Origin: Endomicrobiia bacterium
Lineage (GTDB): Bacteria; Elusimicrobiota; Endomicrobiia; Endomicrobiales; Endomicrobiaceae
DNA length: 37,214 bases
Direction of reading: 5' to 3'
NCBI GenBank assembly: GCA_009776745.1
Contig: WRNH01000011.1
Location: forward strand, 1 to 37,214
The notes below the pieces were generated by a model. The model was not told where the DNA came from. It saw only the letters and a list, made by a program, of their open reading frames with translations, and did not search any database. Position numbers and translations under genes: made by a program. Positions 1 to 37,170 of the stretch are shown piece after piece (the first letter of the stretch is position 1; every line of letters starts with the position of its first letter).

Positions 1-1
1 A

Positions 2-997: not shown

Positions 998-1000
998 AAA

Positions 1001-1122: not shown

Positions 1123-1138
1123 AAGGGAGATATCAAAA

Positions 1139-2424: not shown

Positions 2425-2431
2425 GATGAAA

Positions 2432-2824: not shown

Positions 2825-2826
2825 AG

Positions 2827-3252: not shown

Positions 3253-3255
3253 AAA

Positions 3256-3512
3256 ATGACAGAGACGCTAAACGAATTGCCGTCATACATTGCAGCTGCA
3301 TCTTTACAAATAATGCGGGCGGACTTAATTTTACAATAATAGCGCCGTCTTTTGCTTTATCCCTTAAACTTACTTTGAAAAAAGCGGTAAATTAAAAATT
3401 GAATGGACTGATATGACAAAAGCATTTGCTTTCATTTTCATTATAAATGCGATTGCATTTTTTGCCATGCCAAAATTTTTGAGGATTATTGTCAAAGCGC
3501 TTATACCATAGG
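3256..3512 (+). pseudogene. Possible decayed gene remnant
   Basis: This stretch has no single open frame, but protein-like pieces run in succession. From ATG 3256 comes a 27-codon ORF. It is followed in another frame by a piece ending FALSLKLTLKK. After one more shift at an A-run near 3377 comes SGKLKIEWTDMTKAFAF, leading into a hydrophobic segment (FIFIINAIAFFAMPKF) that stops at 3512. The pieces join naturally if one or two indels are restored, which suggests a frameshifted gene whose 3' end abuts the LolA-like gene. I do not recognise the family. Chance is a real alternative. Confidence 0.35.
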
Positions 3513-4178
3513 AACCTTATTTTGAATAAAATATTTACTGCGGCATTGCCGCCATTGCAGGAAGCGTTATCGACGAAAAAATCCATATTAACGGCTGCGT
3601 CCTTAATGCTTTTTTTAATATTTTTCACATATTCGTTTTGCGCGGCGCAAAGCGCGCCTGAAAAAGATTTGTCCGCGTTTTCTTCGGTAAGCGCTATAGA
3701 AAGCAGATTTTATATGGCAAAATATGTTTCCATAGCCGATAAACCTTTGACAAGCGAAGGGAAATTTTATTTTCAAAGGCCGGACAAACTTTATTGGGAA
3801 TACGAAACGCCTTATTCTTACGGCTTTATAATTTCCGAAGGCAAAACTTTATCATGGCAAGATAAAGACGGCGTAAAAGAAACTAAAGATATAACAAAAC
3901 AGCCGGCCGCAAAAGAAATGGCAAATCAGCTTTATACTTTTGTTTCTATGGACACGGACAAAATATCCAAAGTATATACGGTCGAACATTTTGAAGAAGG
4001 CATAATTTTATATCCTAAAAACCAGTCAAAAAAACAGATGATACAAGACATTAAAATATATTTCGCGGATGATATTGCCGCGGTAAGGGAAGTTGTTATC
4101 GCGGAACGTTCGGGAGATAAAACCGTGATAACTTTTACGGAAACAAAAATAGACGATAAAACTGAATTTGCGAATTGA
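3489..4178 (+). CDS. LolA-like outer-membrane lipoprotein carrier homologue (ApeL-like)
   Basis: Periplasmic carrier-like protein that in APE clusters is thought to move the lipid-linked product, or a lipoprotein, toward the outer membrane. After a signal peptide (KKSILTAASLMLFLIFF...CAAQS) it shows the LolA pattern: FSSVSAIESRFYMAKYVS, then GKFYFQRPDKLYWEYETPY (short hydrophobic beta-strands), then a C-terminal half with IKIYFADD. The start is doubtful. TTG 3489 has GAGG upstream but leaves about 29 residues before the Lys-Lys of the signal peptide. At the natural place (about 3577) the codon is ACG, preceded by GGAAG, so a lost ATG is possible. Next is the MMPL exporter. Confidence 0.78.
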   Translation: MSKRLYHRNLILNKIFTAALPPLQEALSTKKSILTAASLMLFLIFFTYSFCAAQSAPEKDLSAFSSVSAIESRFYMAKYVSIADKPLTSEGKFYFQRPDKLYWEYETPYSYGFIISEGKTLSWQDKDGVKETKDITKQPAAKEMANQLYTFVSMDTDKISKVYTVEHFEEGIILYPKNQSKKQMIQDIKIYFADDIAAVREVVIAERSGDKTVITFTETKIDDKTEFAN

Positions 4179-4260
4179 GTAAAAACTTATAAAATGTTTT
4201 GGCTTTGCCCAAACACATGCGCTTATAACCCGTCATTCGTAATTTTTTTAGGAAATTTGA

Positions 4261-7041: not shown

Positions 7042-7051
7042 AATAGAGGAC

Positions 7052-7191
7052 AGGTAATAAGTAATAGGTAAAAGATTTTGGTGTTTTCGTCTTGCGAAAA
7101 CCTAAAATAAATTTCGTTTCGGCAATCCTGCGGCTGCGCTCAGGACAGCCGCCGAAACACAACACCTATTACCTATTGCCTATTACTTGTT
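7052..7191. repeat. Heptad-arm palindromic element, copy 2 (GTAATAG-type arms)
   Basis: The left arm has GTAATAA/GTAATAG/GTAAAAG units from 7053; the right arm (about 7165-7190) is the complement (CCTATTACCTATTGCC). Hairpin A is imperfect (TTTTCG/GCGAAAA). Hairpin B (GTTTCGGC...GCCGAAAC) carries a longer head with a nested CCTG/CAGG stem (about 7121-7152). No AACGGCA terminus is left at either end. It fills the gap between the exporter gene and the dehydratase ATG at 7192, which directly follows the right arm. Confidence 0.85.
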
Positions 7192-7542
7192 ATGATAACA
7201 GTCGATCAGGCTATAAGATCATCTTTTATAAAAAAAGAAAATAATATATTTTCTTTTTTTATAGATAAAAATTTTCCGGCATTTGAAGGACATTTTCCGG
7301 GCGCGCCTCTTTTGCCCGGGATAGCGCAGATAGAAATAGCGTTATTTTGCATTAGTCGGATTTTAGGCAAAAACGTTTGCATTGCGGAAATTAAAAAAGC
7401 CAAATTTGCAAACCCCGTGCTTCCTGCTGCGGAAATTTTTGTTTCCGTTACGGAAAATACGCCGTATTACGGCATATTGATAAAAGATGAAAAAAAAACA
7501 TATGCTCAAATATCTATGAGCGTTGACAATTCCGCAGAATAA
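7192..7542 (+). CDS. FabZ-like 3-hydroxyacyl-ACP dehydratase (ApeI-like)
   Basis: Hotdog-fold dehydratase, 116 aa. The diagnostic FabA/FabZ box FEGHFPGAPLLPGIAQIE (residues about 27-44) is present with its active-site His. The matching acidic residue is at the IEIA helix. It is shorter than FabZ (~145 aa) and lacks the C-terminal strand extension, as ApeI proteins do. It is predicted to dehydrate the polyene intermediates on the cluster ACPs together with the hotdog protein at 2827. The ATG lies against the right end of a palindromic element and has no clear Shine-Dalgarno, which may lower its translation. The thioesterase gene starts 7 nt after its stop. Confidence 0.87.
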   Translation: MITVDQAIRSSFIKKENNIFSFFIDKNFPAFEGHFPGAPLLPGIAQIEIALFCISRILGKNVCIAEIKKAKFANPVLPAAEIFVSVTENTPYYGILIKDEKKTYAQISMSVDNSAE

Positions 7543-7549
7543 GGAAAAT

Positions 7550-8011
7550 ATGATACCGAAATCATTCTTTAAACAAAACCCCGAAGATCCAAAACCTTTA
7601 AAACACATAATAAAAAGAAAAGTCCGTTTTGACGAGCTTGATCCTTTAAATATTGTGTGGCACGGCAATTATGCAAGTTATTTTGAAGAAGGGCGCATAG
7701 CCATGGGCGATAAATACGGGTTCGGGTATCTGGATTTTAAAAAACACGGCGTAATGATACCGCTAAAAAAGTTTTATGTCGATTATATAATGCCTTTGGA
7801 GTTTGCCAAAGAATATGCAATAGAAACGCTTCTTTACTGGAACGAATCCGCCAGACTTGATTTTGAATACCGCATATACGATTGCGAAAACAGGCTTGTC
7901 ACAATGGGATACAGCGTCCATATGATGGTAGATTTAAATAAAGGGATCCTTGTAGTCAAACCCGCATTCTATGAAAAAATCTGTGAAAAATGGAAAGAAG
8001 GAAAAATATGA
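7550..8011 (+). CDS. 4HBT-family acyl thioesterase (ApeK-like)
   Basis: Predicted to hydrolyse acyl-thioesters, either releasing the polyene or editing the carrier protein. 153 aa from ATG 7550, chosen because AAGGAAA (7542-7548) precedes it; an upstream in-frame ATG at 7523 lies inside the dehydratase gene. The YbgC/FcbC-type motif is FDELDPLNIVWHGNYASYFE, with the Asp before the PLN loop (residue 31) in the catalytic position and the usual WHGNY..YFE continuation. It sits between the ApeI-like dehydratase and the glycosyltransferase, as in known APE clusters. Natural substrate unknown. Confidence 0.88.
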   Translation: MIPKSFFKQNPEDPKPLKHIIKRKVRFDELDPLNIVWHGNYASYFEEGRIAMGDKYGFGYLDFKKHGVMIPLKKFYVDYIMPLEFAKEYAIETLLYWNESARLDFEYRIYDCENRLVTMGYSVHMMVDLNKGILVVKPAFYEKICEKWKEGKI

Positions 8012-8130
8012 AATTAATTAGTAATTAGTAATGAGTAATTAAGGAGTGCGCGAAGCGCACCTATTAATAAGCGGGGCAAAGCCCCGCACAACAATTACTA
8101 ATTACTAATTACTCATTACTAATTGCCGTT
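8012..8130. repeat. Heptad-arm palindromic element, copy 3 (TTAGTAA-type arms)
   Basis: Arms are made of TTAGTAA/TGAGTAA units (8016-8040) and their complement (8093-8124), ending TTGCCGTTAA. The core has a GC-rich hairpin GTGCGC/GCGCAC (loop GAA) and a second CGGGGC/GCCCCG (loop AAA) in place of the TTTTCGC and TTTCGGC stems of other copies, at the same positions and spacing. It begins directly after the thioesterase stop codon and ends just before the glycosyltransferase ATG. It is almost identical to the copy at 9296, so the glycosyltransferase gene is flanked by direct repeats. Confidence 0.9.
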
Positions 8131-8136
8131 AAAACT

Positions 8137-9297
8137 ATGTTTAAAAAATTTAACCCGTTAGCGGTCATTCCTCTTTATAATCATTCCGGCACAATTGAGC
8201 ATATTGTCTCGGGGTCATTACCTTATTGTAAAGAAATTATGATCGTCGACGACGGCAGTACCGATTCAGGGATCCGCGATATGGAAAAACTGCCCGTCAA
8301 CATAATCCGTTTCAAAAAAAATAAAGGCAAAGGCGCCGCGATCATAGCTGCAGCGGAATGGGCTGCGGAAAATAAATTTACGCATATAATTACCATTGAC
8401 GCCGACGGGCAGCATTATCCTTACGATATACCGAAACTTCTTAAAGCCGCTGAAGACAGCCCGAATTCTATAATAATCGGAAAACGCAAATTTGAAAATC
8501 CGGATATTCCCGCAGCGTCAAAGTTCGGCAGAAAATTTTCCGGATTTTGGGCAAAAGTGCAGACCGGCAAAAAAATTATCGACATGCAAAGCGGCTACAG
8601 AGTTTATCCGCTTTCGGTATTTGATAAATTTAAAATTTACACAAGACGCTTTACTTTTGAAGTGGAAATTATCATCAAGGCTTTATGGGCTGGTTTTAAA
8701 GTCGAAGAAGTTGAAGTTGACGTTCATTATCCGGATAAGAAGAAAAGGATTTCGCATTTTAAGTTTTTTGCTGATAATGCAAGGATCAGCATTTTAAATA
8801 CTTATCTTACCATCAGGGCAATGATACCTTTTCCGCACAGAAAATATATTGAAAACAAAGAAGGAAAAATAATTTCTCAAAATCCCTTTAAAGCCGTTGC
8901 GGAACAGATGAAAAATGAAAATAATCCGTTTCATCTTGCGGTGTCCGCAGCCTGGGGCAGTTTTTGGGGCGCGCTCGCTTTGCCGGGAGTAAGAGCTTTT
9001 ATTTTAATGGTCGGCGTGGGCTGGTTTAATTTAAACAGAGCCGTTGCTTTCAGCGTTGACAAACTTGCCATGCCTCCGTTTATTCCATTTGTTTGTATTG
9101 AAGTGGGATATTATTTAAGGCATGGCAAATTTTTAACGGAAATAAGCTGGCAGATAATAGGAACGCAGTTTTTACAAAGAGTATGGGAATGGATCTTAGG
9201 CTCTTTGATAGTTGCACCGGTATTTGCATTGCTGGTAGGAAGCATTGTTTATATTGCAGGAAAGATAATGAGGATAGGCGCGAGAAAACTGCTTTAA
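8137..9297 (+). CDS. GT2 glycosyltransferase with C-terminal DUF2062 membrane domain (ApeJ N-half-like)
   Basis: Family-2 glycosyltransferase, 386 aa, expected at the cytoplasmic face of the inner membrane. The N-terminal GT-A domain (about 1-235) has the nucleotide-binding VDDGSTD and the metal-binding DADGQH motif, plus DMQSGYRVYP and a Phe-Glu-Val-Glu acceptor motif. Residues about 260-386 form a hydrophobic domain typical of DUF2062 (VSAAWGSFWGALALPG, then TM segments). In reference APE clusters, GT2 and LpxL-type acyltransferase domains are fused in one protein (ApeJ); here they are two genes, with the acyltransferase next at 9430. The sugar donor cannot be told. The stop TAA overlaps the AACGGCA end of the following element. 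Confidence 0.88.
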   Translation: MFKKFNPLAVIPLYNHSGTIEHIVSGSLPYCKEIMIVDDGSTDSGIRDMEKLPVNIIRFKKNKGKGAAIIAAAEWAAENKFTHIITIDADGQHYPYDIPKLLKAAEDSPNSIIIGKRKFENPDIPAASKFGRKFSGFWAKVQTGKKIIDMQSGYRVYPLSVFDKFKIYTRRFTFEVEIIIKALWAGFKVEEVEVDVHYPDKKKRISHFKFFADNARISILNTYLTIRAMIPFPHRKYIENKEGKIISQNPFKAVAEQMKNENNPFHLAVSAAWGSFWGALALPGVRAFILMVGVGWFNLNRAVAFSVDKLAMPPFIPFVCIEVGYYLRHGKFLTEISWQIIGTQFLQRVWEWILGSLIVAPVFALLVGSIVYIAGKIMRIGARKLL

Positions 9298-9414
9298 CGG
9301 CAATTAGTAATTAGTAATGAGTAATTAAGGAGTGCGCGGAACGCGCACCTAATTAATAAGCGGGGCAAAGCCCCGCACAACAATTACTAATTACTAATTA
9401 CTCATTACTAATTG
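9296..9414. repeat. Heptad-arm palindromic element, copy 4 (TTAGTAA-type arms)
   Basis: Near-identical to the copy at 8012-8130. It starts with AACGGCA, whose first AA belongs to the glycosyltransferase stop codon. Its first hairpin is one base pair longer than in copy 3 (GTGCGCG/CGCGCAC against GTGCGC/GCGCAC) with the GAA loop unchanged, so both sides of the stem changed together. The right terminus is diverged (ATTGTCTTTA instead of ATTGCCGTTA). Next comes the Shine-Dalgarno TAGGAG of the acyltransferase gene. Confidence 0.9.
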
Positions 9415-9429
9415 TCTTTAGGAGAATTT

Positions 9430-10317
9430 GTGTCTCAAAAATGGACTAGTAAAAGTTTAGGGAGTTCTTTTTTTCAGAATCTGTTTTGCTTTTTTGTAAA
9501 ATACGGCGGCAGGCATATTGCGTATTTTATCGTTTATTTTGTCGCGGTTTTTTATACTTTGCTTCCGTCGGTAAGATGCAAAGCGTCTTTTTATTTGAAA
9601 CGGCGTTTTCCGGAAAGTAATACTTTCGGGCGTTTCTTTCACGCTTACAGGCTTATTCTTACTTTCGGAAAAATACTTGCGGACAGAGCGGCGCTTGGCA
9701 TAACCGGAGAAATTAAAATTATTTCTTCCAAAGAAGATCAGCAGCTTTGCAGGGATCTGCACTCTAAAGGCAAAGGCTTGATAATAATTACCGCGCATTG
9801 CGGCTGCTGGCAGACGGCGATGTCGTGTTTTGATTTTATGGAAGGCGACAAATACGTGATTTATCACAGAAGCAAAGAAGACATAGACAGACATGCGCAC
9901 GAACTTTCCGGAGAAAAACCTCCTGTAAATTTTATTGATCCCGCAAATTTCGGCGGCGGTTCGGTCGAAATAATGTCCGCTCTTTCAAAAAACGGGATAG
10001 TCTGCGCAATGGGCGACAGAACATTTGGAAACGGCGATAATAAAACGGAAGTTGATTTTTTAGGCGGTAAAATTGATATTCCTTACAGCATTTACAGAAT
10101 TGCCGGCGCAACGGGCGCGCCTATTGCCGTGATATTTTTTCCGCGCGGCCGCAGCGGCGAAATAGATTCGGTAATTGCCGAAACCTTTTTTGTTGAAGAT
10201 AAAGGCCATAATGCAAAAAACTATTTTAATGACGCGCAAAAATTTATAAAATCATTAGAAAGCTTTTGCGAAAAATACCCGTACCAGTTTTTCAATTATT
10301 ATGATATGTGGAAATAG
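9430..10317 (+). CDS. LpxL/HtrB-like lysophospholipid acyltransferase family protein (ApeJ C-half-like)
   Basis: LPLAT-family protein of 295 aa from GTG 9430, chosen because TAGGAG (9419-9424) lies 5 nt before it. An N-terminal hydrophobic stretch (about 20-47) would anchor it in the inner membrane. The acyltransferase box is TAHCGCWQTAM. In LpxL-type enzymes this is HX4(D/E); here the sixth residue is Gln, so the catalytic acid seems replaced. Downstream, GIVCAMGDRTFG and PIAVIFFPRG follow the LpxL pattern. In APE clusters this domain is usually fused to GT2. Whether it is active with His-Gln is open. Confidence 0.8.
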   Translation: MSQKWTSKSLGSSFFQNLFCFFVKYGGRHIAYFIVYFVAVFYTLLPSVRCKASFYLKRRFPESNTFGRFFHAYRLILTFGKILADRAALGITGEIKIISSKEDQQLCRDLHSKGKGLIIITAHCGCWQTAMSCFDFMEGDKYVIYHRSKEDIDRHAHELSGEKPPVNFIDPANFGGGSVEIMSALSKNGIVCAMGDRTFGNGDNKTEVDFLGGKIDIPYSIYRIAGATGAPIAVIFFPRGRSGEIDSVIAETFFVEDKGHNAKNYFNDAQKFIKSLESFCEKYPYQFFNYYDMWK

Positions 10318-10353
10318 AACGGCAGGTAACAGGTAAAAAGTAATAGGTAATAA
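10318..10353. repeat. Half palindromic element (left arm only)
   Basis: Directly after the acyltransferase stop codon comes AACGGCAGGTAACAGG and further GTAAAAA/GTAATAG units, but neither hairpins nor a right arm follow. It looks like a solo arm or deletion product of the GTAATAG-type element. The ribosome site GCGAGGG of the next gene lies a few bases beyond. Confidence 0.75.
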
Positions 10354-10376
10354 TAAATTGCGAGGGTATATATAAT

Positions 10377-11597
10377 ATGGATATGCTGCAGCAGCGAAAA
10401 CAGGAAAGAGAGCGGGTTTTGCAATCCGAAAAGTATTTGCGTGTAAAAAAACGCGCTTCGGAATTAACCGGTAAAAATATAATATTGAAATTAGCAAACC
10501 CTGAAAATATGACGGTTTACGGGAACTATAATGCCAGAACTTTTGACAGGCCGGAAAACATATATACGATCACAGTTCCTTACGATTCTAAAAGATTAGA
10601 CTTGCCGGAAGATTCTTTGCTTGCTTTTGTTTTGTCAGAGTATTCTTATTGTTATTGCGAAGATACAAACAATCAAAACAGAGATCTTTTTTATTTCATT
10701 CTTGTAATGATTATGCTGCTGTTGGGAGCCGGCTTAGTATTTTTGAAAGATATTGGTTATTATAAAGTTCCGTTATTATTCGCAGCGCTTCCTATAGTTT
10801 TTTTTGTTCTTTTAATAATTTTTAAAGAAATAAACGTGCATTATACAAAAAATTCGGTTTTCCATGCGGATAAACGATCTCTCGGATTTACGGGTAACCC
10901 GAATGCTTTAATAAATTTATTGGAATCTTTTAAAAATATTGAAATTTTACATTTCAAGTTAGGGATAAAGCACAAAAGCCTGCATAAAAATAACTTTTTA
11001 CAAAAAAGAATTGACAAATTGCAAAATGAGAAGTTTAATCATGTTTTATTTGAGCCTGAATCTGAGTCCAGCAAAGAATATGAAGAGACTCCGCCGCGCG
11101 ATATTTTGCCGCAATTTCAACCCGGACCAAAAGAGGAAAAGCCTTCTGTCTACGATATGCTCAAAGAGAGAAACGAATATCAAATCAGATTAAAAGAAGA
11201 GGCGCAGAAGGCGTTGGCCGATAATATGCTTAAAGAGCAAAGCAGATACCAGTTTATAAAAATCCCGAAAAATGCTATTTTTACAGATCCCGTTGTCAGC
11301 TCAAAATCTACGCCGGTTTTTTTGTATGCGGTTTTAATAATAGTTACCGCTTTAGTTTTTTGGGGAGTTAAATACGGTTTTGATTTGGACAAATCGAAAG
11401 AACTTAAAAATTGGTCTGAACAATCCGAAAGCAGAACCAATGCGGTTTCTGCGCTTAAAAACACAATACAATTTTTTATGCAGACGGTAACAAGCAACAA
11501 AATAACAAAAATATCAGACAGTGAAATACAAAAAACAGTTGAAAAAGACGAATTGCATGATACTAATACAATAAACGGCGCGGAGTTTGGAGGATGA
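10377..11597 (+). CDS. Membrane protein resembling HtpX/M48 peptidases without zinc histidines
   Basis: 406 aa, inner-membrane by prediction. The order is HtpX-like. LLAFVLSEYSY (87-91) stands where M48 enzymes have LAFVLxHELSH. Two TM helices follow (about 104-124 and 130-149). Then comes VFHADKRSLGFTGNPNALINLLESF (written here only to note HADK at 163-166 and GNP-AL), where M48 has the EADR...G-P-AL helix. Both HExxH histidines are Ser and Tyr, the middle Glu is kept, and the third ligand Glu is His. A charged linker (about 225-305, Pro/Glu/Lys-rich) leads to a third TM (about 318-340) and a polar tail. I read it as a non-peptidase M48 relative, function unknown. It is in line with the APE-like genes, before an ACP. 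Confidence 0.7.
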   Translation: MDMLQQRKQERERVLQSEKYLRVKKRASELTGKNIILKLANPENMTVYGNYNARTFDRPENIYTITVPYDSKRLDLPEDSLLAFVLSEYSYCYCEDTNNQNRDLFYFILVMIMLLLGAGLVFLKDIGYYKVPLLFAALPIVFFVLLIIFKEINVHYTKNSVFHADKRSLGFTGNPNALINLLESFKNIEILHFKLGIKHKSLHKNNFLQKRIDKLQNEKFNHVLFEPESESSKEYEETPPRDILPQFQPGPKEEKPSVYDMLKERNEYQIRLKEEAQKALADNMLKEQSRYQFIKIPKNAIFTDPVVSSKSTPVFLYAVLIIVTALVFWGVKYGFDLDKSKELKNWSEQSESRTNAVSALKNTIQFFMQTVTSNKITKISDSEIQKTVEKDELHDTNTINGAEFGG

Positions 11598-11599
11598 GT

Positions 11600-11662
11600 G
11601 TAACGGCGATTAACAACTGACAAAGTACAATTTAATTGTTATTTATTAATTGCTTTTGCTGA
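11600..11662. repeat. Degenerate palindromic element with TTAACAA-type units
   Basis: After the stop comes AACGGCGATTAACAACTGA, an AACGGC end with an arm of another sequence type. The rest (AATTGTTATTTATTAATTGC) is partly complementary to it. A related arm, reversed, is at 24022-24050 (TTGCCGTTAATTGTTATTTG). No clear central hairpins remain. The following AAAGGGG is the ribosome site of the ACP at 11686. Confidence 0.5.
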
Positions 11663-11685
11663 GCTTTCAAAAAGGGGATAAAGGT

Positions 11686-11943
11686 ATGATACGAACAACT
11701 TTGGACGACGTAAAGGAAGTCTTGAACGCTAATCTTGATATGCAGGGGATTGATTTGGATTCTTTAAAAGAGGATACGCCTCTTTTTTCAGGGCTTGGTT
11801 TGGACAGTCTGGACGCAATAGAACTGGTTATAATTTTGCGTAAAAATTATGACATTGTCGTGGAAAACATGGACGAAGGCAGAAAAATATTCCAAACTCT
11901 CGGCACATTGAGAGAACATATAGAACAAACAAGGAAGAAGTAA
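11686..11943 (+). CDS. Acyl carrier protein (85 aa)
   Basis: Second carrier protein of the cluster. I place the start at ATG 11686, with AAAGGGG about 9 nt upstream; an in-frame upstream start at 11650 would overlap that site. The phosphopantetheine attachment motif is GLGLDSLDAIELV, Ser41. It differs clearly from the ACP at 1139 (for example the helix-III region NMDEGRKIF against NYEVGKIM). The two ACPs may thus serve different steps, as ApeE and ApeF do in characterised APE systems. It precedes a complete ketosynthase and the CLF-ligase fusion. Confidence 0.93.
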   Translation: MIRTTLDDVKEVLNANLDMQGIDLDSLKEDTPLFSGLGLDSLDAIELVIILRKNYDIVVENMDEGRKIFQTLGTLREHIEQTRKK

Positions 11944-12078
11944 GAATAACAACAAAGTGGAAAGTGAAGAGTGAAAATATTGTATTTTGTTTGGTAAGCA
12001 GCCGGCATGGATCCCCGATCAAGACATTCGGGAATAACGCCTGCCGGCGTCACTTTAAAATTTGAACTTTGCCGTTTA
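11944..12078. repeat. Degenerate heptad-arm element with foreign core
   Basis: The left arm has GTGGAAA/GTGAAGA/GTGAAAA units (about 11957-11976). The right end reads CTTTGCCGTTTA (about 12067-12078), as in copy 1. In place of the two hairpins the core holds GCCGGCA...TGCCGGC (about 12001-12052) enclosing CCCGA/TCGGG, the kind of GGATCCCCGAT/TTCGGGAAT repeat also hinted at 24111 and 37114. It seems to be an element whose core was exchanged or invaded. Confidence 0.55.
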
Positions 12079-12096
12079 TTAAATTGGTTAAAATTT

Positions 12097-13284
12097 ATGA
12101 AAACAATAATTTCGGGCTTCGGATGCGTTTGTTCGCTGGGAAGCAATACCGAAGAAATTACTAAAAATCTTTTTGAAGGCTCAATAAAACCGTCTTATAT
12201 GAAAGACAGGTTTGAGAGTTCTTATGCCGTCGAGTATCCGGTTTTTCAGGTTCCGGACAGTATTTTGGCGCAGCGTGAAGACGGCGAAAGCTGCAGTTTT
12301 TTATTTTTTAGAAAAGCTTTGCTTGAAGCTATGGAAAAAGCCGGTCTGAAGAAAGAAGATTTTAAAAATATGAAAGTAGGCGTATGCGCCGGCACTTCGG
12401 TGGACGCTTCGTTTAATTGTTTTGATTTTTATAAAAATTGGAGAGAAGGAGCAGTGCAGTCCCTGAAGCCGTTGGAGAGATATATAAATTATTCGCTTTC
12501 CGCAGAAGTATTGAAATTTTTGGGAATTGAAGGTTTATCGCAAACCGTAGTTACTGCCTGCGCTTCGGGTACCGACGCGATAGGCATAGGCGCGCAATGG
12601 ATCGAAAACGGTTTTTGCGATATAGTTATAGCGGGCGGCGCGGACGAATTAAATTTGATCCCTTTCACCGGATTTATAAAACTTATGATAGCAAGCAAAG
12701 ACCCCTGCAAACCTTTTGACAAAAACAGAAACGGCATAAATCTCGGCGAAGGCGCCGGTATTTTTATTTTGGAATCGCAAAATTCCGTAAAAAAAAGAAA
12801 CGCAATAAAATACGGCGCGGTTTTGGGATACGGAAACGCGTGCGACGGTTATCATGCCACTGCTCCGGAGCCGGAAGGAAGAGGTTTAAAAAAAGCGATA
12901 AATTTTGCGATGAAACAGGCCGGCATCGCCAAAGAAAAACTTGCTTTTATAAACGCTCATGCAACTGGCACGGTTGACAATGATTTGGCGGAGTCAAAAG
13001 TTTTTAATTCTGTCCTTGAAGGCGTTCCTGTTACGGCGACAAAAGGATATACCGGCCACGCGCTCGGAGCGGCCGGAGCGGTAGAAGCCTGTCTTTCGTT
13101 AATATGTCTTAACGAATATAAAATTCCAAAGACAAATAATTTTGAAACTCCCGACGAAAATTTAAATACTGTTCCGGTTTTAGAAAATGCAGGCATAGAA
13201 AAAAACAAAGCGGCTTTATCCGATTCTCTGGCTTTCGGCGGATGCAATGCCTGCATTGTTTTGGCAGGGAGCGATTATGAATAA
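12097..13284 (+). CDS. Beta-ketoacyl-ACP synthase, FabF type
   Basis: Complete condensing enzyme of 395 aa from ATG 12097; the longer frame upstream runs through a repeat and is not used. The nucleophile is Cys155 in VVTACASGTDA. The catalytic His are in NAHATGTVDND and KGYTGHALGAAG, so all three residues are present. The glycine-rich C-terminus DSLAFGGCNACIV is typical. The next gene, a catalytically empty half-ketosynthase fused to a ligase, starts within its last codons (ATGAATAA overlap). This suggests equal synthesis and a KS:CLF-like heterodimer (compare ApeO:ApeC). No strong Shine-Dalgarno is seen. Confidence 0.93.
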   Translation: MKTIISGFGCVCSLGSNTEEITKNLFEGSIKPSYMKDRFESSYAVEYPVFQVPDSILAQREDGESCSFLFFRKALLEAMEKAGLKKEDFKNMKVGVCAGTSVDASFNCFDFYKNWREGAVQSLKPLERYINYSLSAEVLKFLGIEGLSQTVVTACASGTDAIGIGAQWIENGFCDIVIAGGADELNLIPFTGFIKLMIASKDPCKPFDKNRNGINLGEGAGIFILESQNSVKKRNAIKYGAVLGYGNACDGYHATAPEPEGRGLKKAINFAMKQAGIAKEKLAFINAHATGTVDNDLAESKVFNSVLEGVPVTATKGYTGHALGAAGAVEACLSLICLNEYKIPKTNNFETPDENLNTVPVLENAGIEKNKAALSDSLAFGGCNACIVLAGSDYE

Positions 13285-15034
13285 ACTTTATTTCAAAAGT
13301 TCCGCATTTGCGGAAAATACCAACGGCATTGAAGAATTTTTTGACGCAAAACAATTGCGCCGCATAGACGATTTTACGAAACTGTCTTTGTTTTGCGCGG
13401 CAAAAACTTTAGCCGAAGCGGAAATAAAATTAGACGAAGAAAAAGAAGAAATAGGGCTGATAATAGCCACCGGCCGCGGACCCGTAAAACAAACCTGTAA
13501 TTTTATGGATTCGATAATAGACGACGGGGATCTTATGGCTTCCCCGCTTGCTTTTTCAGCCTCGGTGCACAATTGCGTTGAAACGCATATTTCCATGCTT
13601 TTAAAATTCAGAGGCCCATGTCTTACCGTAAGCCAGGGCGGAAACTCTTTTGAATCCGCGGTAAATACGGCCAAAAACTGGCTTCTTTCGCAAAGATGCA
13701 AATACGTGCTTCTTGGCGCTGCCGACGAAATTCATCCGGTTATTTATAAAGAGTACAAACACAAAATATACGGCAAAGACTGCGCGGCATTTTTTCTGCT
13801 TACTTTTGAAGAAACCGGCGACGAATTCAATTTTGAAAGCGGTTTAAAAGACGACTATAATCCCGCGGGGCAGGCTTTTGATCTTGCCAAAAAATACGCG
13901 CCTTTCTTAAACAAAAAAGACGTGGGAAGAATAATTCCGGATTTTATAAAAACTTCGCTGGCAGGCAAAAAAAAAGACGTGATGTCGGTGTTTGACAATC
14001 TCAGCGTCAAAGAAATGCTTAAAAAAACTGATAAAAAAGAAAAAGAAGAAATTCTCGCGGGCATTAAACTGCTTTGCGGCATTAGCAGTACTTTCGGATC
14101 CGAAAATAAAGAGATAGAAGAAATTTGTTATGACGCGTTCATTAAAAACAAACAAATAAATTTTTTTACTTCGGGAAGCACCGGAGCTCAAAAAAACTGC
14201 ATTCATTCGCAGGATATGATAAAAGAAGAGACTGAAGGCGTGTCTTTTCTTTTTAACAAAATCAAAAGAATTGTTTCAACGGTGCCGGCGCATCATTCAT
14301 ACGGTTTTATTTTCGGTTTGCAGCTTCCTAAACTTTTCAATCTTAATGTTATTTCCAAAGCTCCTCTTCCGTTTTTGGAATTGAATAAAATACTTCGGGA
14401 AGGGGATTTGCTTATTGCTTTTCCGCTGTTTTTAAAATATTTGATAGATATAGATTTCAAATTTCCAAAAGGCGTGACTATTTTAACTTCAACATCGTTT
14501 TGTCCGGATTCGGTTTTCGATGAAATGCTTAAGAGAGGCGCGGAAAAAGTTATAGAAATTTACGGTTCTTCGGAAACGGGGGCGATAGGTTTCAGAGAAA
14601 GCGCCGGAACTCAGTTTTTTCTTTTTTCGTTTTGGAATTATGAAGAGCACGGCAGCATAATAACCGAAGTATGCAGAAAAAATACTCCGCTGCGCTGCGA
14701 ACTTCCGGATATTGTAAGATCCAAAGGCGAAAGAATGTTTTCCATTATTGAACGAAAAGATCACGCGGTTAAAATAGCCGGCATAAATGTTTATCCGCTT
14801 AAAATAGAAAAAATACTTAAAAAACACAACAATGTGAAAGACGCTGTCGTGCGCCTCGGAGGCGAAAGGCTGAAGGCTTTCATTGTTCTCCGCGACGACG
14901 CCAACGTTAAAGCGGCTAAAAAAAGCATACATGATTATATACAATCGGTGCTTACCGCGCATGAAATACCAAGAAATATAACTTTCGGGAACGAACTTCC
15001 GTTAACTCCTTTCGGCAAAAAAGCCGACTGGTAA
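13277..15034 (+). CDS. Fusion: chain-length-factor-like half-ketosynthase plus AMP-dependent acyl ligase
   Basis: 585 aa. Residues about 1-200 match the thiolase N-terminal half found in ApeC-type proteins (PF13723-like): SPLAFSASVHNCVETHIS, then LTVSQGGNSFESA, where alignment with the neighbouring KS puts Gly122 at the Cys position, then LLGAADE. It therefore cannot condense and probably shapes chain length with the KS. From about 250 to the end is an ANL-superfamily ligase: P-loop FFTSGSTGAQK (about 297), IEIYGSSETGAIG (about 427), ERKDHAVKIAGINVYP (hinge, about 492) and the C-terminal LTPFGKKADW with the catalytic Lys. It would load an aromatic or acyl starter on an ACP (ApeH-like). These are two genes in reference APE clusters. 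No stop or frameshift lies between the domains. Confidence 0.86.
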   Translation: MNKLYFKSSAFAENTNGIEEFFDAKQLRRIDDFTKLSLFCAAKTLAEAEIKLDEEKEEIGLIIATGRGPVKQTCNFMDSIIDDGDLMASPLAFSASVHNCVETHISMLLKFRGPCLTVSQGGNSFESAVNTAKNWLLSQRCKYVLLGAADEIHPVIYKEYKHKIYGKDCAAFFLLTFEETGDEFNFESGLKDDYNPAGQAFDLAKKYAPFLNKKDVGRIIPDFIKTSLAGKKKDVMSVFDNLSVKEMLKKTDKKEKEEILAGIKLLCGISSTFGSENKEIEEICYDAFIKNKQINFFTSGSTGAQKNCIHSQDMIKEETEGVSFLFNKIKRIVSTVPAHHSYGFIFGLQLPKLFNLNVISKAPLPFLELNKILREGDLLIAFPLFLKYLIDIDFKFPKGVTILTSTSFCPDSVFDEMLKRGAEKVIEIYGSSETGAIGFRESAGTQFFLFSFWNYEEHGSIITEVCRKNTPLRCELPDIVRSKGERMFSIIERKDHAVKIAGINVYPLKIEKILKKHNNVKDAVVRLGGERLKAFIVLRDDANVKAAKKSIHDYIQSVLTAHEIPRNITFGNELPLTPFGKKADW

Positions 15035-15359: not shown

Positions 15360-17315
15360 ATGTCTGATTTTTCTTCGGGGCAGCGGCTGGATGCGCTTAA
15401 AAGGTATTTTGGGCATGGGGCGTTTCGCGGGGCGCAGGAAAGGGCGGTTGAAAGTATTTTGGGCGGGCGCGATACGCTTTGCGTTATGCCTACGGGAGCG
15501 GGCAAGTCGGTTTGTTTTCAGCTTCCCGCCGTATTGCTTGACGGGATCACGTTTGTGATTTCTCCCCTGATATCTTTGATGAAAGATCAGATAGATTCTC
15601 TTTCCCAAAACGGTATACCCTGCGCATGCATCAACAGTTCGCTTTCTTTATCTGAGATAAAAAACGTTCTTTCAAATACCGCCAAGGGAAGATATAAACT
15701 TATTTACATTGCCCCGGAAAGGCTGGATAACGAGTGGTTTTTATCTTTTGCAAAGTCTCTTAAAATTTCCATGATCGTCGTTGACGAAGCGCATTGCGTT
15801 TCCCAGTGGGGGCAGGATTTTCGCGTAAGCTACACAAAGATTTCTGATTTTGTAGATAGTATAATGCTCGCCGGCATTCCGGCGCGTCCGTTTGTTTGCG
15901 CTTTTACGGCTACGGCAACTCCGCGCGTTCGCGAAGATATAGTTAAAATGTTAAAACTTCAAGATCCGGAAATTATAGTTTCGGGTTTTGACAGAGAAAA
16001 CTTAAACTTTGAAGTTCGCCGTCCCGCAAAAAAGTTTGAGGAGTTAAGCTCCTTTTTAAGGGAACTTCGTTCCCAGGAACAAAGTTCCCAGGAACGAAGT
16101 TCCCAGGAACGAAGTTCCAAAAGCGGGATTATTTACTGCTTAACAAGAAAAACCGTTGACGAGCTTAGCGAAAAACTAAAAAGTTTAGGTTTTAGCGTTG
16201 CGCCGTATCACGCGGGGCTTTCCGCTAAAGACAGGCATAAAAATCAGGAAGATTTTATTTTTGACCGCGTTCATATTATAGTCGCGACAAACGCTTTTGG
16301 CATGGGCGTCAACAAATCTAATGTGTCTTTTGTTTTGCATTATAATATGCCAAAAGATATTGAAAGTTATTATCAGGAAGCAGGCAGAGCAGGCAGGGAC
16401 GGCAGTCCCGCGGATGCCGTGATTTTATACAGCGGGCAGGATATAAGGACAAATCTTTTTCTTATCAATGAAAGCAAAGATAAGCAATATTCTTCGCCGG
16501 AAGAAGAGATGTATTTAAAATCTTTGGAAAGAAAAAGATTAAAAGAAATGGACTTGTACTGCAATACCCACGAGTGCCTGAGGCGCTATATTTTAAAATA
16601 TTTTGGAGAGGAAATAAAAAACCCGCAAAGCGGGTGTAAAAACTGCGGGAACTGCAATTGCAAATCCGACATTAAAGATATCACCGTTTTATCGCAGAAA
16701 ATTTTATCCTGCGTTTTCAGGATGCGCGAAAATTTCGGCAAAAACACTGTGATCGACGTCTTAAAAGGAAGCAAAAACGCGCGCGTCCAGAGATTTATGC
16801 TCGATAAACTTTCAACTTACGGAATATGCAAAGAACACAGAACGGAAATCCAAGACGCGATAACGTTTTTGCTGGTCAACGGCTTTTTAGATATGACAAA
16901 CGGAGAGTTTCCGGTACTAAAATTAGGCGGCCGCGCAAACGAAATATTAAAAGATAAAATTAAAGTTGAAATGAAACTTTCCGCAAACAAACAAAAAGAA
17001 TCGCAAGTAGCCGACGAACGCGCGGCAAAGCTTGCCGCCGATAAGTTATTAAAAGCGCCTGCCGGCACCATAAGCACCATAGACCAAAAATTGTTTGCAA
17101 ATTTGAAATCCTTAAGGGCAAAACTAGCCAACGCCCAAAACCTGCCTGCCTATATAATTTTCCACGACAGCGCGCTGATAGACATGTGCGCAAAACTTCC
17201 CAAAACCAAAGAAGATTTTGCCATGATATCCGGCGTAGGCGCACAAAAATTAGAAAGATACGGCGACATTTTTATTAAAGAGATAAGCAATTATTTATCG
17301 GCAGCGCAAAGCTGA
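15360..17315 (+). CDS. recQ: ATP-dependent DNA helicase RecQ
   Basis: 3'-5' DNA helicase of recombination and replication repair, 651 aa. In order: helicase core with Walker A (MPTGAGKSVCFQLP, about residue 43), DEAH box (VVDEAHCVSQWGQDFR), motif III (FTATATPRV), motif VI (YYQEAGRAGRDG). Next come the zinc-binding region with four Cys (CNTHEC...CKNCGNC), the winged-helix RQC domain (about 440-530) and a C-terminal HRDC domain (about 565-645). Length and order match full RecQ. Oddity: at residues about 235-253, between the two RecA lobes, a run of SQERS pentapeptides is encoded by a tandem palindromic DNA repeat (16061-16120). Confidence 0.96.
   Translation: MSDFSSGQRLDALKRYFGHGAFRGAQERAVESILGGRDTLCVMPTGAGKSVCFQLPAVLLDGITFVISPLISLMKDQIDSLSQNGIPCACINSSLSLSEIKNVLSNTAKGRYKLIYIAPERLDNEWFLSFAKSLKISMIVVDEAHCVSQWGQDFRVSYTKISDFVDSIMLAGIPARPFVCAFTATATPRVREDIVKMLKLQDPEIIVSGFDRENLNFEVRRPAKKFEELSSFLRELRSQEQSSQERSSQERSSKSGIIYCLTRKTVDELSEKLKSLGFSVAPYHAGLSAKDRHKNQEDFIFDRVHIIVATNAFGMGVNKSNVSFVLHYNMPKDIESYYQEAGRAGRDGSPADAVILYSGQDIRTNLFLINESKDKQYSSPEEEMYLKSLERKRLKEMDLYCNTHECLRRYILKYFGEEIKNPQSGCKNCGNCNCKSDIKDITVLSQKILSCVFRMRENFGKNTVIDVLKGSKNARVQRFMLDKLSTYGICKEHRTEIQDAITFLLVNGFLDMTNGEFPVLKLGGRANEILKDKIKVEMKLSANKQKESQVADERAAKLAADKLLKAPAGTISTIDQKLFANLKSLRAKLANAQNLPAYIIFHDSALIDMCAKLPKTKEDFAMISGVGAQKLERYGDIFIKEISNYLSAAQS
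16061..16120 (+). repeat. Four tandem 15-bp palindromic units inside recQ
   Basis: Units GGAACTTCGTTCC, GGAACAAAGTTCC, GGAACGAAGTTCC and GGAACGAAGTTCC are each followed by a CA or AA spacer. Each unit is itself a near-perfect palindrome (GGAACNNNGTTCC), and the unit length keeps the frame, giving Ser-Gln-Glu-Arg-Ser repeats. It lies at the joint between helicase lobes, a place that tolerates insertions. Confidence 0.9.
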
Positions 17316-19040: not shown

Positions 19041-19706
19041 ATGATAAAAACCGCGTTTATCAGCGATTTTGACGGGACGATAACAAAAGAAGATTTTTTT
19101 AATATGGCCGTAAACGGTCTGCTTGCTCCAAACGATTTAAAACCGTGGCACGATTATCTCGGCAAAAAAATCACTCATTATCAGGCGCTCGACGGAATTT
19201 TTTCAAAAATCCGCATTTCTCAAAGCGCGCTTGATGATTTTATAAAAACTATAGAGATAGACCCTTATTTTACGCAGACGCTGGAATTATGCAAATCTTT
19301 GCAAATCCCGGTGTATATATGCAGTGCGGGAATGGATTATTATATTTTGAAACGAATCCCGGATGAGATTAAAAAGTACAAAATAACGCTTCTTTCAAAT
19401 AAAGGCGAATATTCGCCGGAAACGGGTTTTAAACTTACCCCGCCGCCGAACGATTATATGTTTTACAATGAAAACACCGGTATTTCTAAAGAAGCGCTGG
19501 TTGAATATTTGAAAAAGCAGGGCTTTTTTACGATATATGCCGGCGACGGCATTCCGGATTTAGAACCGGCAAAAATTGCAGACGCGGTTTTTGCAAAAAG
19601 CGTTCTTCTGGAGTTGTGCCGCAAGCAAAATATAAAAACTTTAAAATTTGACGATTTTAGGGACATAATAAAATATATAAAACGGCAAGTAACAGGTAAT
19701 AAGTAA
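19041..19706 (+). CDS. HAD-family phosphatase, MtnX-like
   Basis: HAD subfamily IB phosphatase, 221 aa from ATG 19041 (AAAAAGGA upstream). Motif I is SDFDGTITKEDFF (Asp nucleophile and general acid), motif II VYICSAGMDYY (Ser), motif IV IYAGDGIPDLEPA (metal Asp pair). The set matches MtnX-like phosphatases (2-hydroxy-3-keto-5-methylthiopentenyl-1-phosphate phosphatase) and phosphoserine-phosphatase relatives; no other methionine-salvage gene is here. Oddity: the last residues, RQVTGNK and the stop, are encoded by the palindromic element that begins at 19681, so the native C-terminus was probably replaced. It may be co-transcribed with the G1P-dehydrogenase-like gene. Confidence 0.85.
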   Translation: MIKTAFISDFDGTITKEDFFNMAVNGLLAPNDLKPWHDYLGKKITHYQALDGIFSKIRISQSALDDFIKTIEIDPYFTQTLELCKSLQIPVYICSAGMDYYILKRIPDEIKKYKITLLSNKGEYSPETGFKLTPPPNDYMFYNENTGISKEALVEYLKKQGFFTIYAGDGIPDLEPAKIADAVFAKSVLLELCRKQNIKTLKFDDFRDIIKYIKRQVTGNK

Positions 19707-19807
19707 CAGATATTGTGTTTCGGCAAAGCCGAAACCTATTTTAGGTTTTCGCAAAGCGAAAACACCAAAACCTTTTACCTTTTACTTGTTACCTATTACC
19801 TGCCGTT
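19681..19807. repeat. Heptad-arm palindromic element, copy in inverted orientation
   Basis: Complete copy with both ends: AACGGCAAGTAACAGG... and ...CCTATTACCTGCCGTT. The hairpins come in reverse order to the copies at 1001 and 36536: first TTTCGGC/GCCGAAA (loop AAA), then TTTTCGC/GCGAAAA (loop AAA). The left 26 nt are coding sequence (end of the HAD gene). The right end is followed at once by AAGGAG, the ribosome site of the next gene. Confidence 0.92.
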
Positions 19808-22910: not shown

Positions 22911-22952
22911 GAAAAACTTTCCTTTTATTCATTCAATTACGAATAAACTGCG

Positions 22953-23026
22953 GTTGCCATAGTCGTCGAAAAAAAAGCAAACGAATTTCGGGAATGACAA
23001 ACAGTGGTTTTTAGAGATACCCGTAT
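22953..23026 (+). repeat. GCCATAGTCGTCG dispersed repeat, copy 1
   Basis: TTGCCATAGTCGTCGA, an A-run with GCAA, a shortened CGGGAATGACAAACAG block and TTTTTAGAGATACCCGTA. A longer copy is at 37083-37170 and an inverted partial one at 24084-24110. It fills most of the 119-nt gap between the MacB and MacA genes. Confidence 0.8.
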
Positions 23027-23956: not shown

Positions 23957-24223
23957 ATTTTTCCCTTTTACAATTAAGAGGCTGGGAAATCGGGCGGCTG
24001 CATCTTTGTTTTTCCGCCGCTTTGCCGTTAATTGTTATTTGTTAATTATTTAAATCCGCAGATTTACTGCGGAAAACCGCGCTGCTTTTTTCCCGACGAC
24101 AATGGCAAACATGGATCCCCGTTGGAATTTACCCTCGAGCGCCTAAATCGGGGGCGGGACACGGCGCAGGCAGGGTTTTTAGAAAAACCGGATTGTTAAT
24201 TGCTGCCCGCCGCTCTCTGCCGT
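23957..24223. other. 267-nt intergenic repeat patchwork
   Basis: Between the adaptor and TolC-like genes. Pieces seen: an AACGGC-type end with TAACAAT-like units (TTGCCGTTAATTGTTATTTG, 24022-24041); the hairpin CCGCAG/CTGCGG (about 24054-24072); an inverted GCCATAGTCGTCG repeat (24084-24110); GGATCCCCG (24112-24120); and a GCCGTTTATTG end (24216-24226) overlapping the end of the TolC-like gene. No gene is visible. It seems a landing zone for several repeat families. Confidence 0.65.
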
Positions 24224-29489: not shown

Positions 29490-30243
29490 CTAAATCACCT
29501 ATCATTATATTGTATTTAGCGTTGTATTTCCCACCCTTTTGTATCACGCGAACGCCTTTACCTAAGTCAATCTTGTTAAGGTCAAACTTTAACCAAGAAG
29601 CATTGGTTTTTTCAGCTAAGTAAAGAAACAGTCTTTTAACTTTTACGGATTTACATTGTTCCAAAAGAGTTTGCAATACATTTGGTCTGAAATTTCTGAA
29701 CTGTCCGAAAATCTCGAACATTTCCTGTAAACCTACATATTTGGGAGCTAAGTATAAAGCCTCAATAGCAGCACGTTCTACTTTTGAGATTTTTACAGTA
29801 AAATTACCGGCATCGTATTCTTGTAATGCCAAATCTTCGGATAAAAAATCAGTATTAAACAGTTTCCAACGGTCTTTATCTCCAAAATCGTATTCCTTAA
29901 ACCACTTCGGCAATACCACGCCCCTGTTTGCAAATAACTGCCAGTTATTTTTAAATCTGCCGTAATGCGTTTTACCGTACAATACCAATGCCGCCATACC
30001 GCCGATATGAACCTTTAACTTTGCCTGCTTTTGTAAAGCATACACCGCACCGGTAAAACTTGCATTTTCAGAGCTAAACTTTAAAAAAGCGCCTTTACCG
30101 ATAGGTTTTAACCAACCGTTTAATCTATACTTCTGTTGCAAACTTGACGATATACCCTGTTTTAATAACCACGACGATAAAACAACTGTGTTTGGCGGTA
30201 TAAGGTCAAGTTTTTTTAAAAATGTTTGTGTTTTTACATTCAT
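29476..30243 (-). CDS. AbiEi-family antitoxin
   Basis: Antitoxin and transcriptional repressor of the AbiE type IV system, 255 aa, apparently full length. An N-terminal winged-helix part (about 1-60: WLLKQGISSSLQQKYRLNGWLKPIGKGAF) would bind the operator. The following AbiEi_3-like domain has IGGMAALVLYG and GNFTVKISKVERAAIEALYLAP. It would repress its own operon through the repeat array at 30210-30346, the first copy of which lies inside its 5' coding end. Its partner toxin is deleted, so the antitoxin may now persist alone as a repressor. Confidence 0.85.
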   Translation of the reverse strand: MNVKTQTFLKKLDLIPPNTVVLSSWLLKQGISSSLQQKYRLNGWLKPIGKGAFLKFSSENASFTGAVYALQKQAKLKVHIGGMAALVLYGKTHYGRFKNNWQLFANRGVVLPKWFKEYDFGDKDRWKLFNTDFLSEDLALQEYDAGNFTVKISKVERAAIEALYLAPKYVGLQEMFEIFGQFRNFRPNVLQTLLEQCKSVKVKRLFLYLAEKTNASWLKFDLNKIDLGKGVRVIQKGGKYNAKYNIMIGDLDDNQ

Positions 30244-30346
30244 AGTATAGTTATGCTAACATTTTTAAAAAAACGAGTCAAGCTTCTTTAAAAATGTTGC
30301 TGATTTTATACCTACAGTATGAAATGGCTGACATTTTTAAAGAAAC
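30210..30346. promoter_or_regulatory. Four-copy operator-like array of the AbiE operon
   Basis: The motif RACATTTTTAAARAAAC appears four times in alternating orientation: minus 30210-30226 (inside the antitoxin gene), plus 30258-30274, minus 30284-30299, plus 30329-30346. Copies 2 and 3 form an inverted repeat around the expected promoter. AbiEi proteins are known to autoregulate by binding inverted repeats upstream of their operon, so this is a likely operator. Confidence 0.7.
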
Positions 30347-30580
30347 AAGTTAATTTTTTCCTTTATAGCCAAATCTGTCAAATATGCGATTTTGCAATGT
30401 CTTTTTCATAACTATAGAAAAACAACATATTTTTTCTACTAATTCAATGGGTATGCAACGAAGCATAAAGATAACTATTTGCAGGCTGGGTCTTTACGCT
30501 ATTGTCACGGAGGTATAGGATTGTTTTCTTGCCACAAGCCTCTTTGTTCAAGTCTTGTTGTCTTTTTTTGTTTTGGTATC

Positions 30581-35740: not shown

Positions 35741-35777
35741 CTTTTTACCTATTATCTATTACCTATTACCTGCCGTT
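35741..35777. repeat. Half palindromic element overlapping the 3' end of parA
   Basis: CCTATTATCTATTACC-type units ending CCTGCCGTT (up to 35776). Only one arm is present, without hairpins. It codes the last residues RQVIGNR and stop of ParA, much as the element at 19681 codes RQVTGNK of the HAD phosphatase. Confidence 0.8.
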
Positions 35778-36535: not shown

Positions 36536-36669
36536 AACGGCAGGTAATAGGTAAAAGGTAATAGGTAATAGGTTTTTGGTGTTTTCGCAAAGCGAAAACC
36601 TAAAAATAGGTTTCGGCGAAGCCGAAACACAATAATCTGTTACCTTTTACCTTTTATCTTTTATTTGTC
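36536..36669. repeat. Heptad-arm palindromic element upstream of parA
   Basis: Starts AACGGCAGGTAATAGG with five GTAATAG/GTAAAAG units, then TTTTCGC/GCGAAAA (loop AAA), TTTCGGC/GCCGAAA (loop GAA) and the complementary arm to about 36669. The right AACGGCA-type end is lost (TTATTTGTCTC) and parS starts 5 nt later. It lies in the leader of parA, whose ribosome site abuts the left end. Confidence 0.92.
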
Positions 36670-36673
36670 TCAT

Positions 36674-36689
36674 TGTTTCACGTGAAACA
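36674..36689. promoter_or_regulatory. parS centromere site
   Basis: TGTTTCACGTGAAACA, a perfect 16-bp match to the universal bacterial parS palindrome bound by ParB. It lies 152 bp upstream of the parA start, between two palindromic elements. Nucleation of ParB here marks the origin-proximal part of the chromosome. Confidence 0.97.
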
Positions 36690-36690
36690 T

Positions 36691-36822
36691 AACGGCAGGT
36701 AATAAGTAATAGGTTTTGGTGTTTTCGCTTTGCGAAAACCTAAAATAGGTTTCGGCTGGGACAAAGTCCCTGCCGAAACACAATATCTTTTACCTATTAC
36801 CTTTTATCTCTTACTTGCCGTT
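36691..36822. repeat. Heptad-arm palindromic element beside parS
   Basis: Complete with both ends (AACGGCAGGTAATAAG ... CTTACTTGCCGTT). Hairpin A TTTTCGC/GCGAAAA (loop TTT). Hairpin B TTTCGGC/GCCGAAA with a longer head that forms its own GGGAC/GTCCC stem (about 36764-36776). It starts one base after parS. Confidence 0.92.
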
Positions 36823-36897: not shown

Positions 36898-36995
36898 ATT
36901 TTACATTTTCGCTTTGCGAAAACCTGAAATAGGTTTCGGCTTTGCCGAAACACAATATCTGTTACCTTTTACCTTTTATCTGTTACCTGCTCTTT
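36898..36995. repeat. Palindromic element lacking its left arm
   Basis: TTTTCGC/GCGAAAA (36905-36921) and TTTCGGC/GCCGAAA (36932-36951), both with TTT loops, then the CTGTTACCTTTTACC-type right arm to about 36990. No left arm and no AACGGCA end. Confidence 0.8.
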
Positions 36996-37082
36996 TGACC
37001 CAAGCTTGTCAGTCCGAGTTAGAGGCCATTTCTATCCATTAAACCGCCGAGGTACCACGTGCGTGAGCCCGTGGAGGTTCAC

Positions 37083-37170
37083 GTTTGCCATAGTCGTCGA
37101 GAAAAAAAGCAACGCGGATTCCCGATAGAGACTCTCGGGAATTGACAAACAGGTTTTTTTAGAGGTACCC
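37083..37170 (+). repeat. GCCATAGTCGTCG dispersed repeat, copy 2
   Basis: GTTTGCCATAGTCGTCGAG, an A-run, then GGATTCCCGAT...CTCTCGGGAATTG (an inverted repeat CCCGA/TCGGG), ACAAACAGG and TTTTTTTAGAGGTACCCGTA. Longer than the copy at 22953, which lacks the first half of the inverted repeat. The stretch before it (36996-37082) shows no gene. Confidence 0.8.

Follow-up and report, generated by a model that had tools for sequence, protein, structure and literature searches.

A probable superfamily of MITE-like fold-back elements with matched heptad or octad arms in Endomicrobium-type bacteria

The dispersed palindromes described here on balance probably constitute a non-autonomous, MITE-like superfamily of fold-back elements of Endomicrobium-type bacteria, the arms of which would be renewed via template switching in hairpins and then multiplied. 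Short bacterial palindromes are usually regarded as single families that spread and then decay. One architecture combined with many matched arm sequences represents an unusually rich record of the birth of long palindromes and of the upkeep of their pairing.

The window, i.e. the entire 37,214-nt stretch of DNA analyzed, is contig C11 of genome G000, a 2.29-Mb MAG in 130 contigs. The closest named relative of its ParB protein (84% identity) is that of Candidatus Endomicrobium neocapritermitis (Elusimicrobiota, termite gut). Four genomes of the same genus (g1; G001, G002, G003 and G004) were used for comparison, and g11 is the sister genus. The sampled DNA comprised stretches around matches and a sample of large contigs. 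Genes were taken as long ORFs, and the labels of arm families are our own. The genomes of genus g1 that bear elements are either MAGs or fragmented assemblies, so the copy numbers given are minimum values and some copies may be chimeric. Several contig ends of G000 fall within elements, which probably break assemblies.

A simple scan of 427 kb of G000 revealed 84 long palindromes, of which 41 had arms of 7- or 8-nt periodicity. Among 120 periodic palindromes sampled from G000, G002 and G004, 117 had a period of 7 (89) or 8 (28), and periods 5, 6 and 9 were represented by one palindrome each. The usual plan is an AACGGC-like end, an arm of about 4–5 units repeated in tandem (7-mers or 8-mers), then the centre, and behind it the complementary arm, which closes with a GCCGTT-like end. 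Compared to shifted controls, the outer ends were strongly enriched in AACGGC, AAAGGC, AACGAC or AAAGAC: AA[CA][GTA][GA]C was present at both ends of 26 of the 117 palindromes compared to 1–5 in the controls, and at either end of 87 compared to 26–37. Heptad units of the arms include GGTAATA, GAGTGAA, GAGAATA/GATAATA, GTAATTA and GAATTAC as well as GTTAATA, ATTAACA, GGTTAAT and AAAATAT, and octad units are AGAAGCTC/AGAAGCTG, GATGCAGG and GAAGATTA. The original prediction of at least four arm types was thus too low, as the true count is at least ten families, some of which consist of 8-mers. Two kinds of centre were found. Kind (i), in which the previously proposed common plan of ends, arms and two hairpins was recovered, reads GTG, hairpin A, CCT...AGG, hairpin B, CAC, while kind (ii) consists of a run of hexads resembling ACGGCAACGACA. 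The same arm families are combined with either kind; at L147 7969, GAGTGAA arms enclose a kind-(ii) centre in G000 and a kind-(i) centre in G004. Kind (i) was found within several unrelated arm families and also exists in the sister genus g11, there around other arms. Complete copies of about 65–200 bp, with the exception of a few that contain other nested repeats, have terminal inverted repeats (the arms and AACGGC-like ends), no coding capacity and a length below about 500 bp, as is characteristic of MITEs.

All seven clear copies and the partial or degenerate ones listed beforehand were found in the window (Table 1). An inverted-repeat scan returned 6 matches in the window versus 0 in three simulated sequences with equal dinucleotide make-up. 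Folded as single-stranded DNA, 7 window copies displayed z-scores of -6.6 to -10.4 relative to dinucleotide shuffles. A comparison of the window with Rfam gave no match above the gathering score.

Table 1. Palindromic elements and partial copies in the window, with the content of orthologous gaps in same-genus genomes.
Feature	Positions	Strand	Arms, centre and ends	Orthologous gap
Element	1001-1121	.	GAGTGAA arms; centre same as in 36536 copy; left AACGGC end lost, right end TGCCGTT	8-mer palindrome in sister G004; no palindrome in G001/G003
8-mer-arm palindrome	2219-2371	.	GAGAAGATGGGATGTTGGGAA ... CCACCCTCTCACCTTCT; absent from the list of the original prediction	
Element	7051-7192	.	GGTAATA arms; second hairpin enlarged by nested TCCTGCGGCTGCGCTCAGGA	
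Element	8012-8131	.	GTAATTA arms; hairpins GTGCGC and GCGGGGC	GAGAATA palindrome in G004
Element	9296-9418	.	GTAATTA arms; near-identical to 8012 copy	
Lone arm	10318-10353	+	GGTAATA arm with AACGGCA end	
Decayed element	11600-11660	.	GATTAACAACTGAC ... TTGTTATTTATTAATTGC; judged by eye	
Element, left half	11944-11990	+	GAGTGAA	
Element	19681-19807	.	GGTAATA arms; AACGGC and GCCGTT ends both intact	8-mer GATGCGGG arms in G002 and G004
Lone arm	24022-24060	.	GCCGTT end	Full palindromes of other families in G002/G004; none in G001/G003
Lone arm	35741-35777	-	GGTAATA arm with GCCGTT end; at 3' end of parA	
Complete element	36536-36670	.	GGTAATA arms; two-hairpin centre, loops AAA and GAA; right end degenerate	
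Complete element	36691-36822	.	GGTAATA arms; second hairpin tip with extra nested palindrome GGGACAAAGTCCC	
Element without left arm	36898-36990	.	Centre and right GGTAATA arm	
Element truncated by contig end	37165-37214	.		

The density of 7/8-mer palindromes was 96/Mb in G000, and 278/Mb in G004 and 368/Mb in G002, the latter two values being biased upward because their stretches were picked partly by homology to element-rich G000 loci. In G001 and G003, which belong to the same genus, it was 10/Mb and 0. G000 itself gave 105 BLAST matches. A GAGTGAA element matched 7 of 295 Elusimicrobiota genomes, all within two genera of one family; plasmid records gave no match. Orthologous gaps in G001 and G003 often measure 0–20 bp where G000, G002 or G004 hold an element of about 100–150 bp; the 148 bp at L138 16305-16452, for example, correspond to 8, 8 and 8 bp in the sister species. 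The near-absence from G001 and G003 and the empty gaps show that the elements were gained by insertion at intergenic sites relative to sister species, which answers the presence/absence comparison proposed in the original prediction. Such insertion polymorphism between relatives is a further property of MITEs. In 33 alignments over empty sites, the flanks were by eye too diverged to read a target-site duplication, and none was visible by eye in two tRNA spacers.

Whether arms match copy by copy was analyzed with 54 kind-(i) copies chosen solely by their two centre hairpins, with scores from local alignment between the left arm and the complemented right arm. The mean score of own arms was 21.3 compared to 12.7 (sd 0.9) with permuted right arms, and 0 of 2000 permutations reached it. 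Arms of copies with a shared centre therefore covary, as had been predicted. Within families, own arms scored 20.3 versus 22.6 with the arms of other copies for the GGTAATA family of G000 (n=15, P=0.999), and 20.8 versus 21.8 for the GAGTGAA family (n=15, P=0.84). The P value of 0.007 for the 'GTTAATA' group refers to a group that lumps several sub-families. Since the two arms of a copy fit each other no more closely than they fit arms from other copies of the family, most matching is inherited from a matched family founder. Arm matching is therefore a property of the family; families are born matched, multiply and then drift. The within-family permutations of GGTAATA and GAGTGAA gave no sign of ongoing conversion of arms in individual copies of the large families, and this reading was rejected.

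The statement that the arms of one copy always match was nearly correct, with a mean arm identity of 92% in palindromes that had been detected by pairing. A few copies of the centre-selected set have lost or decayed arms, and one copy (L220 258-306; G004:C2) combines an intact centre with different arm types, AGTTCAAA on the left and GAATTAC on the right. This copy is a recombinant or an assembly chimera, and its 4-kb contig could be a mis-join. The GAATTAC family has species-specific masters. That of G004 reads AATTACG-AATTACG-AATGACG-AATTACG on both arms (four paired copies), and that of G000 AATTACA-AATTACG-AATTACA-AATTACA on both arms (two paired copies). Judging from these few copies, the two arms were altered jointly in the source lineage, which is what arm-to-arm copying would produce if it took place as a master arose. 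The origin of a new arm family or of a species master still calls for concerted change of the arms.

Centres were equally alike across and within arm families. The similarity was 0.71 between GGTAATA and GAGTGAA copies, with a best cross pair of 98%, and 0.76 and 0.69 within the two families. Consequently, either matched arms were swapped jointly with the conserved centre left in place, or the centre moved into several palindrome kinds, and both histories fit these values alike. In 27 distinct centres, 432 of 432 cells of stems A and B were paired, and double-sided changes, 10 in all, affected 4 pairs; the percentage of pairing is partly a product of selection, since copies with at most one stem mismatch had been chosen. 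Stem covariation in the same centres was 0.114 versus 0.074 after shuffling (0/500). With the centre oriented from A to B, the triloops of hairpin A (n=42) were TTT (19), AAA (13), GAA (5) and TTC (1), and those of hairpin B were AAA (13), TTT (11), TTC (5) and GAA (4). Stepwise intermediates between TTT and AAA were nearly absent. Nested palindromes such as GGGACAAAGTCCC and TCCTGCGGCTGCGCTCAGGA are located in hairpin tips, and a nested tip was found in both orientations (TGGGACAAAGTCCCT and AGGGACTTTGTCCCA). A loop that has been inverted while the flanking stems stayed intact carries the footprint of interstrand template switching (PMC8794818). The inversion of triloops and tips between copies is such a footprint in hairpins, at the tips only, from which we infer that hairpin-based change may also reach the 35-nt arms.

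Taken together, the original prediction is supported in so far as arms covary, centre stems exhibit double-sided changes and tips are inverted; arm-to-arm copying as a process acting on each copy is not supported (P=0.999 and 0.84). In the scheme that we favor, a trans-acting enzyme would copy elements into tolerated intergenic sites. Extruded hairpins might be repaired or replicated with template switching, by which tips flip and the short centre stems stay paired. Occasionally, template switching would rebuild a whole arm from its partner, and slippage along the 7/8-mer array could alter the arm sequence. A rebuilt, perfectly matched copy would then found a new arm family and multiply, before its copies drift. 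Such a founder-then-drift scheme, with arm families presumably originating by template switching, would explain why arms match by family and not by individual copy. A bolder version is put forward tentatively: arm identity may be the renewable module of a fold-back class, with template switching rewriting both arms around the conserved two-hairpin centre, which would give rise to open-ended arm families sharing ends and centre, not arm sequence. Hundreds of natural copies could serve to test the template-switch repair of hairpins that mutation assays in E. coli and the evolution of rRNA have revealed.

In several gaps, two or three species hold palindromes that belong to different families, a situation for which hot-spot reuse and in-place replacement are both possible. 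Gaps filled in both G000 and G004 numbered 11, more than expected (Fisher P=0.008), a figure inflated by gap availability and including a coding artefact at L147 9682. If an old fixed palindrome stayed at its locus while template switching and slippage rewrote its arms in situ, this would account for about ten co-occupied gaps (G000 versus G004 or G002), nearly all of which differ in arm family, for the locus L147 7969, where the arm family was kept and the centre differs in G004, and for the GAATTAC masters altered in both arms. However, identical arm families are present at dozens of unrelated loci per genome, many gaps are empty in all sisters, and own arms match no better than foreign arms within families, all of which renders replacement in place unlikely. 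The positions of the elements bear on a role in RNA. They mostly sit between the stop codon and the ribosome-binding site, at a median of 3 nt past the stop codon and 19 nt ahead of the next start codon. This location, a strong RNA fold (-66.8 kcal/mol, z -12.5) and the double-sided changes in centre stems are consistent with selection for intercistronic mRNA hairpins that act as stabilizer or in processing or translation coupling, the arms being free to vary if paired. Such a function is nevertheless very unlikely given that G001 and G003 lack an element in the orthologous gaps, that elements also reside in tRNA spacers and between convergent genes, and that large families are devoid of copy-by-copy arm covariation. 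Moreover, gene-pair context tracks intergenic length only, as the flanking pairs are co-directional in 61 of 91 cases, which is about the share of intergenic bases available.

The strict period of 7 or 8 nt (117/120) and a precedent in Geobacter metallireducens (PMC2700814) argue for inverted operator-like arrays bound by a nucleoid protein or global regulator. This explanation appears highly improbable, because it is difficult to see at least ten unrelated units within a single genome as the site of one protein and occupancy differs across species. REP/BIME-type repeats moved by Y1 (RAYT-like) transposases of the same genome have a somewhat better, though still small, chance. Y1 genes (PF01797) were detected in G000 (2), G004 (3) and G031 (1), corresponding to three of five tested element-bearing genomes, and not in the element-poor G001 and G003. 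On the other hand, PF01797 was not found in G002 (70% complete) or G014 either. In five of the six Y1 loci (L197-L202), a GGTCARGGGGACGKAG-type repeat lies beside the gene, three times on both sides; the sixth gene is adjoined by a GAATTAC palindrome alone, and 7/8-mer arms bracket none of the six. The search proposed earlier for a full-length relative with a transposase or RAYT-type gene yielded Y1 genes, but beside other palindromes, and no autonomous relative among the stretches searched.

Y1/RAYT proteins were rejected as mobilizer because the flanking repeats differ. Also rejected were IS110 (PF02371), present in G002 only, and reverse transcriptase/group II introns (PF00078), absent from all of the nine genomes inspected. 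A self-BLAST of more than 30 stretches for separated inverted arms of an autonomous relative yielded only arms that seemed to belong to two separate copies each. The GGTCARGGGGACGKAG-type palindromes and Y1 genes represent a separate REP-like system in these genomes.

To our knowledge, ERIC/IRU, RUP, Correia/NEMIS, RPE and YPAL are each a single sequence family. Unlike these MITEs, the elements described here combine many unrelated arm sequences, built of tandem 7/8-mers, with a single architecture and, in part, a common centre. REP/BIME and RAYT share with them the dispersed extragenic palindromes, the hairpins close to gene ends and a Y1 gene in the genome, but the Y1 genes are not associated with the elements and the unit is much longer here. 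Eukaryotic Foldback elements (FB/TFB) are kilobases long and have inverted repeats that are themselves made up of short sub-repeats in tandem, flanking a middle that is short or variable; the likeness is one of anatomy, and homology is not claimed. A literature search for bacterial foldback elements found no paper. In architecture, the elements resemble ERIC/IRU and the other palindromic MITEs of bacteria as outlined in a review, being imperfect palindromes of about 100–150 bp that are intergenic, non-coding and variably present among relatives (PMC2229807). According to the original prediction, no known element joins all of these features. By description, the inverted pairs of tandem octa- and heptanucleotides of G. 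metallireducens come closest, which are multicopy as well (89 period-7 and 28 period-8 palindromes here), fall into classes 1–3 with the unit consensus GTTGCTYN and MTYCTGA, have variable inter-array distances and were read as putative global regulator sites (PMC2700814). In that paper, neither a shared hairpin centre nor AACGGC ends nor an exchange of arm families is described. Cyanobacterial STRR/TAACTGA arrays are likewise intergenic tandem heptamers of several sequences, but direct instead of inverted, inverted pairing being rare with one inverted set of 170 (PMC4679880). In an Endomicrobia genome paper, IS and CRISPR were looked for, and a term search of its text showed no palindromic intergenic repeats (PMC11257099).

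The elements fill operon gaps in termite symbionts and bracket a parS site by parAB. The parS-like sequence TGTTTCACGTGAAACA at 36674-36689 is located directly upstream of parA and near parB, between two elements. Sites of this type are also found near parAB in many related Endomicrobium loci, including L033 and L034 as examples without palindromes.

Other repeats were observed alongside the elements. Tandem 15-nt palindromes GGAACNNNGTTCC are located inside a RecQ helicase ORF (window 16061-16118), and their inner trinucleotide flips between AAA/GAA and TTC, resembling the triloop inversions of the elements. Another dispersed element with ends near TCTCTAAAAACC occurs at 22951-22983 and 37082-37170 in the window and at L137 8301-8449. 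It contains an inner CATTCCCG...CGGGAATGAC plus CGTCGAGAAAAAAGCAACG, and one copy is nested within the centre of a palindrome (L137 8209-8489). Two 72-bp direct repeats, 74% identical and each with an inner inverted repeat AAAAATGTT...AACATTTTT, lie at 30205-30348 of the window. The window region 1-15034 encodes several ketosynthases, an acyltransferase, an MMPL protein, an ApeI-like dehydratase, a thioesterase, a glycosyltransferase and an AMP-binding protein; it resembles an aryl-polyene-type biosynthetic cluster, much of which is conserved in same-genus genomes. Finally, a stretch of about 280–400 bp at L138 ~2776-3300 matches many closely spaced segments of G004:C51 and C43 (66–74%) and is probably a repetitive protein-coding repeat family.
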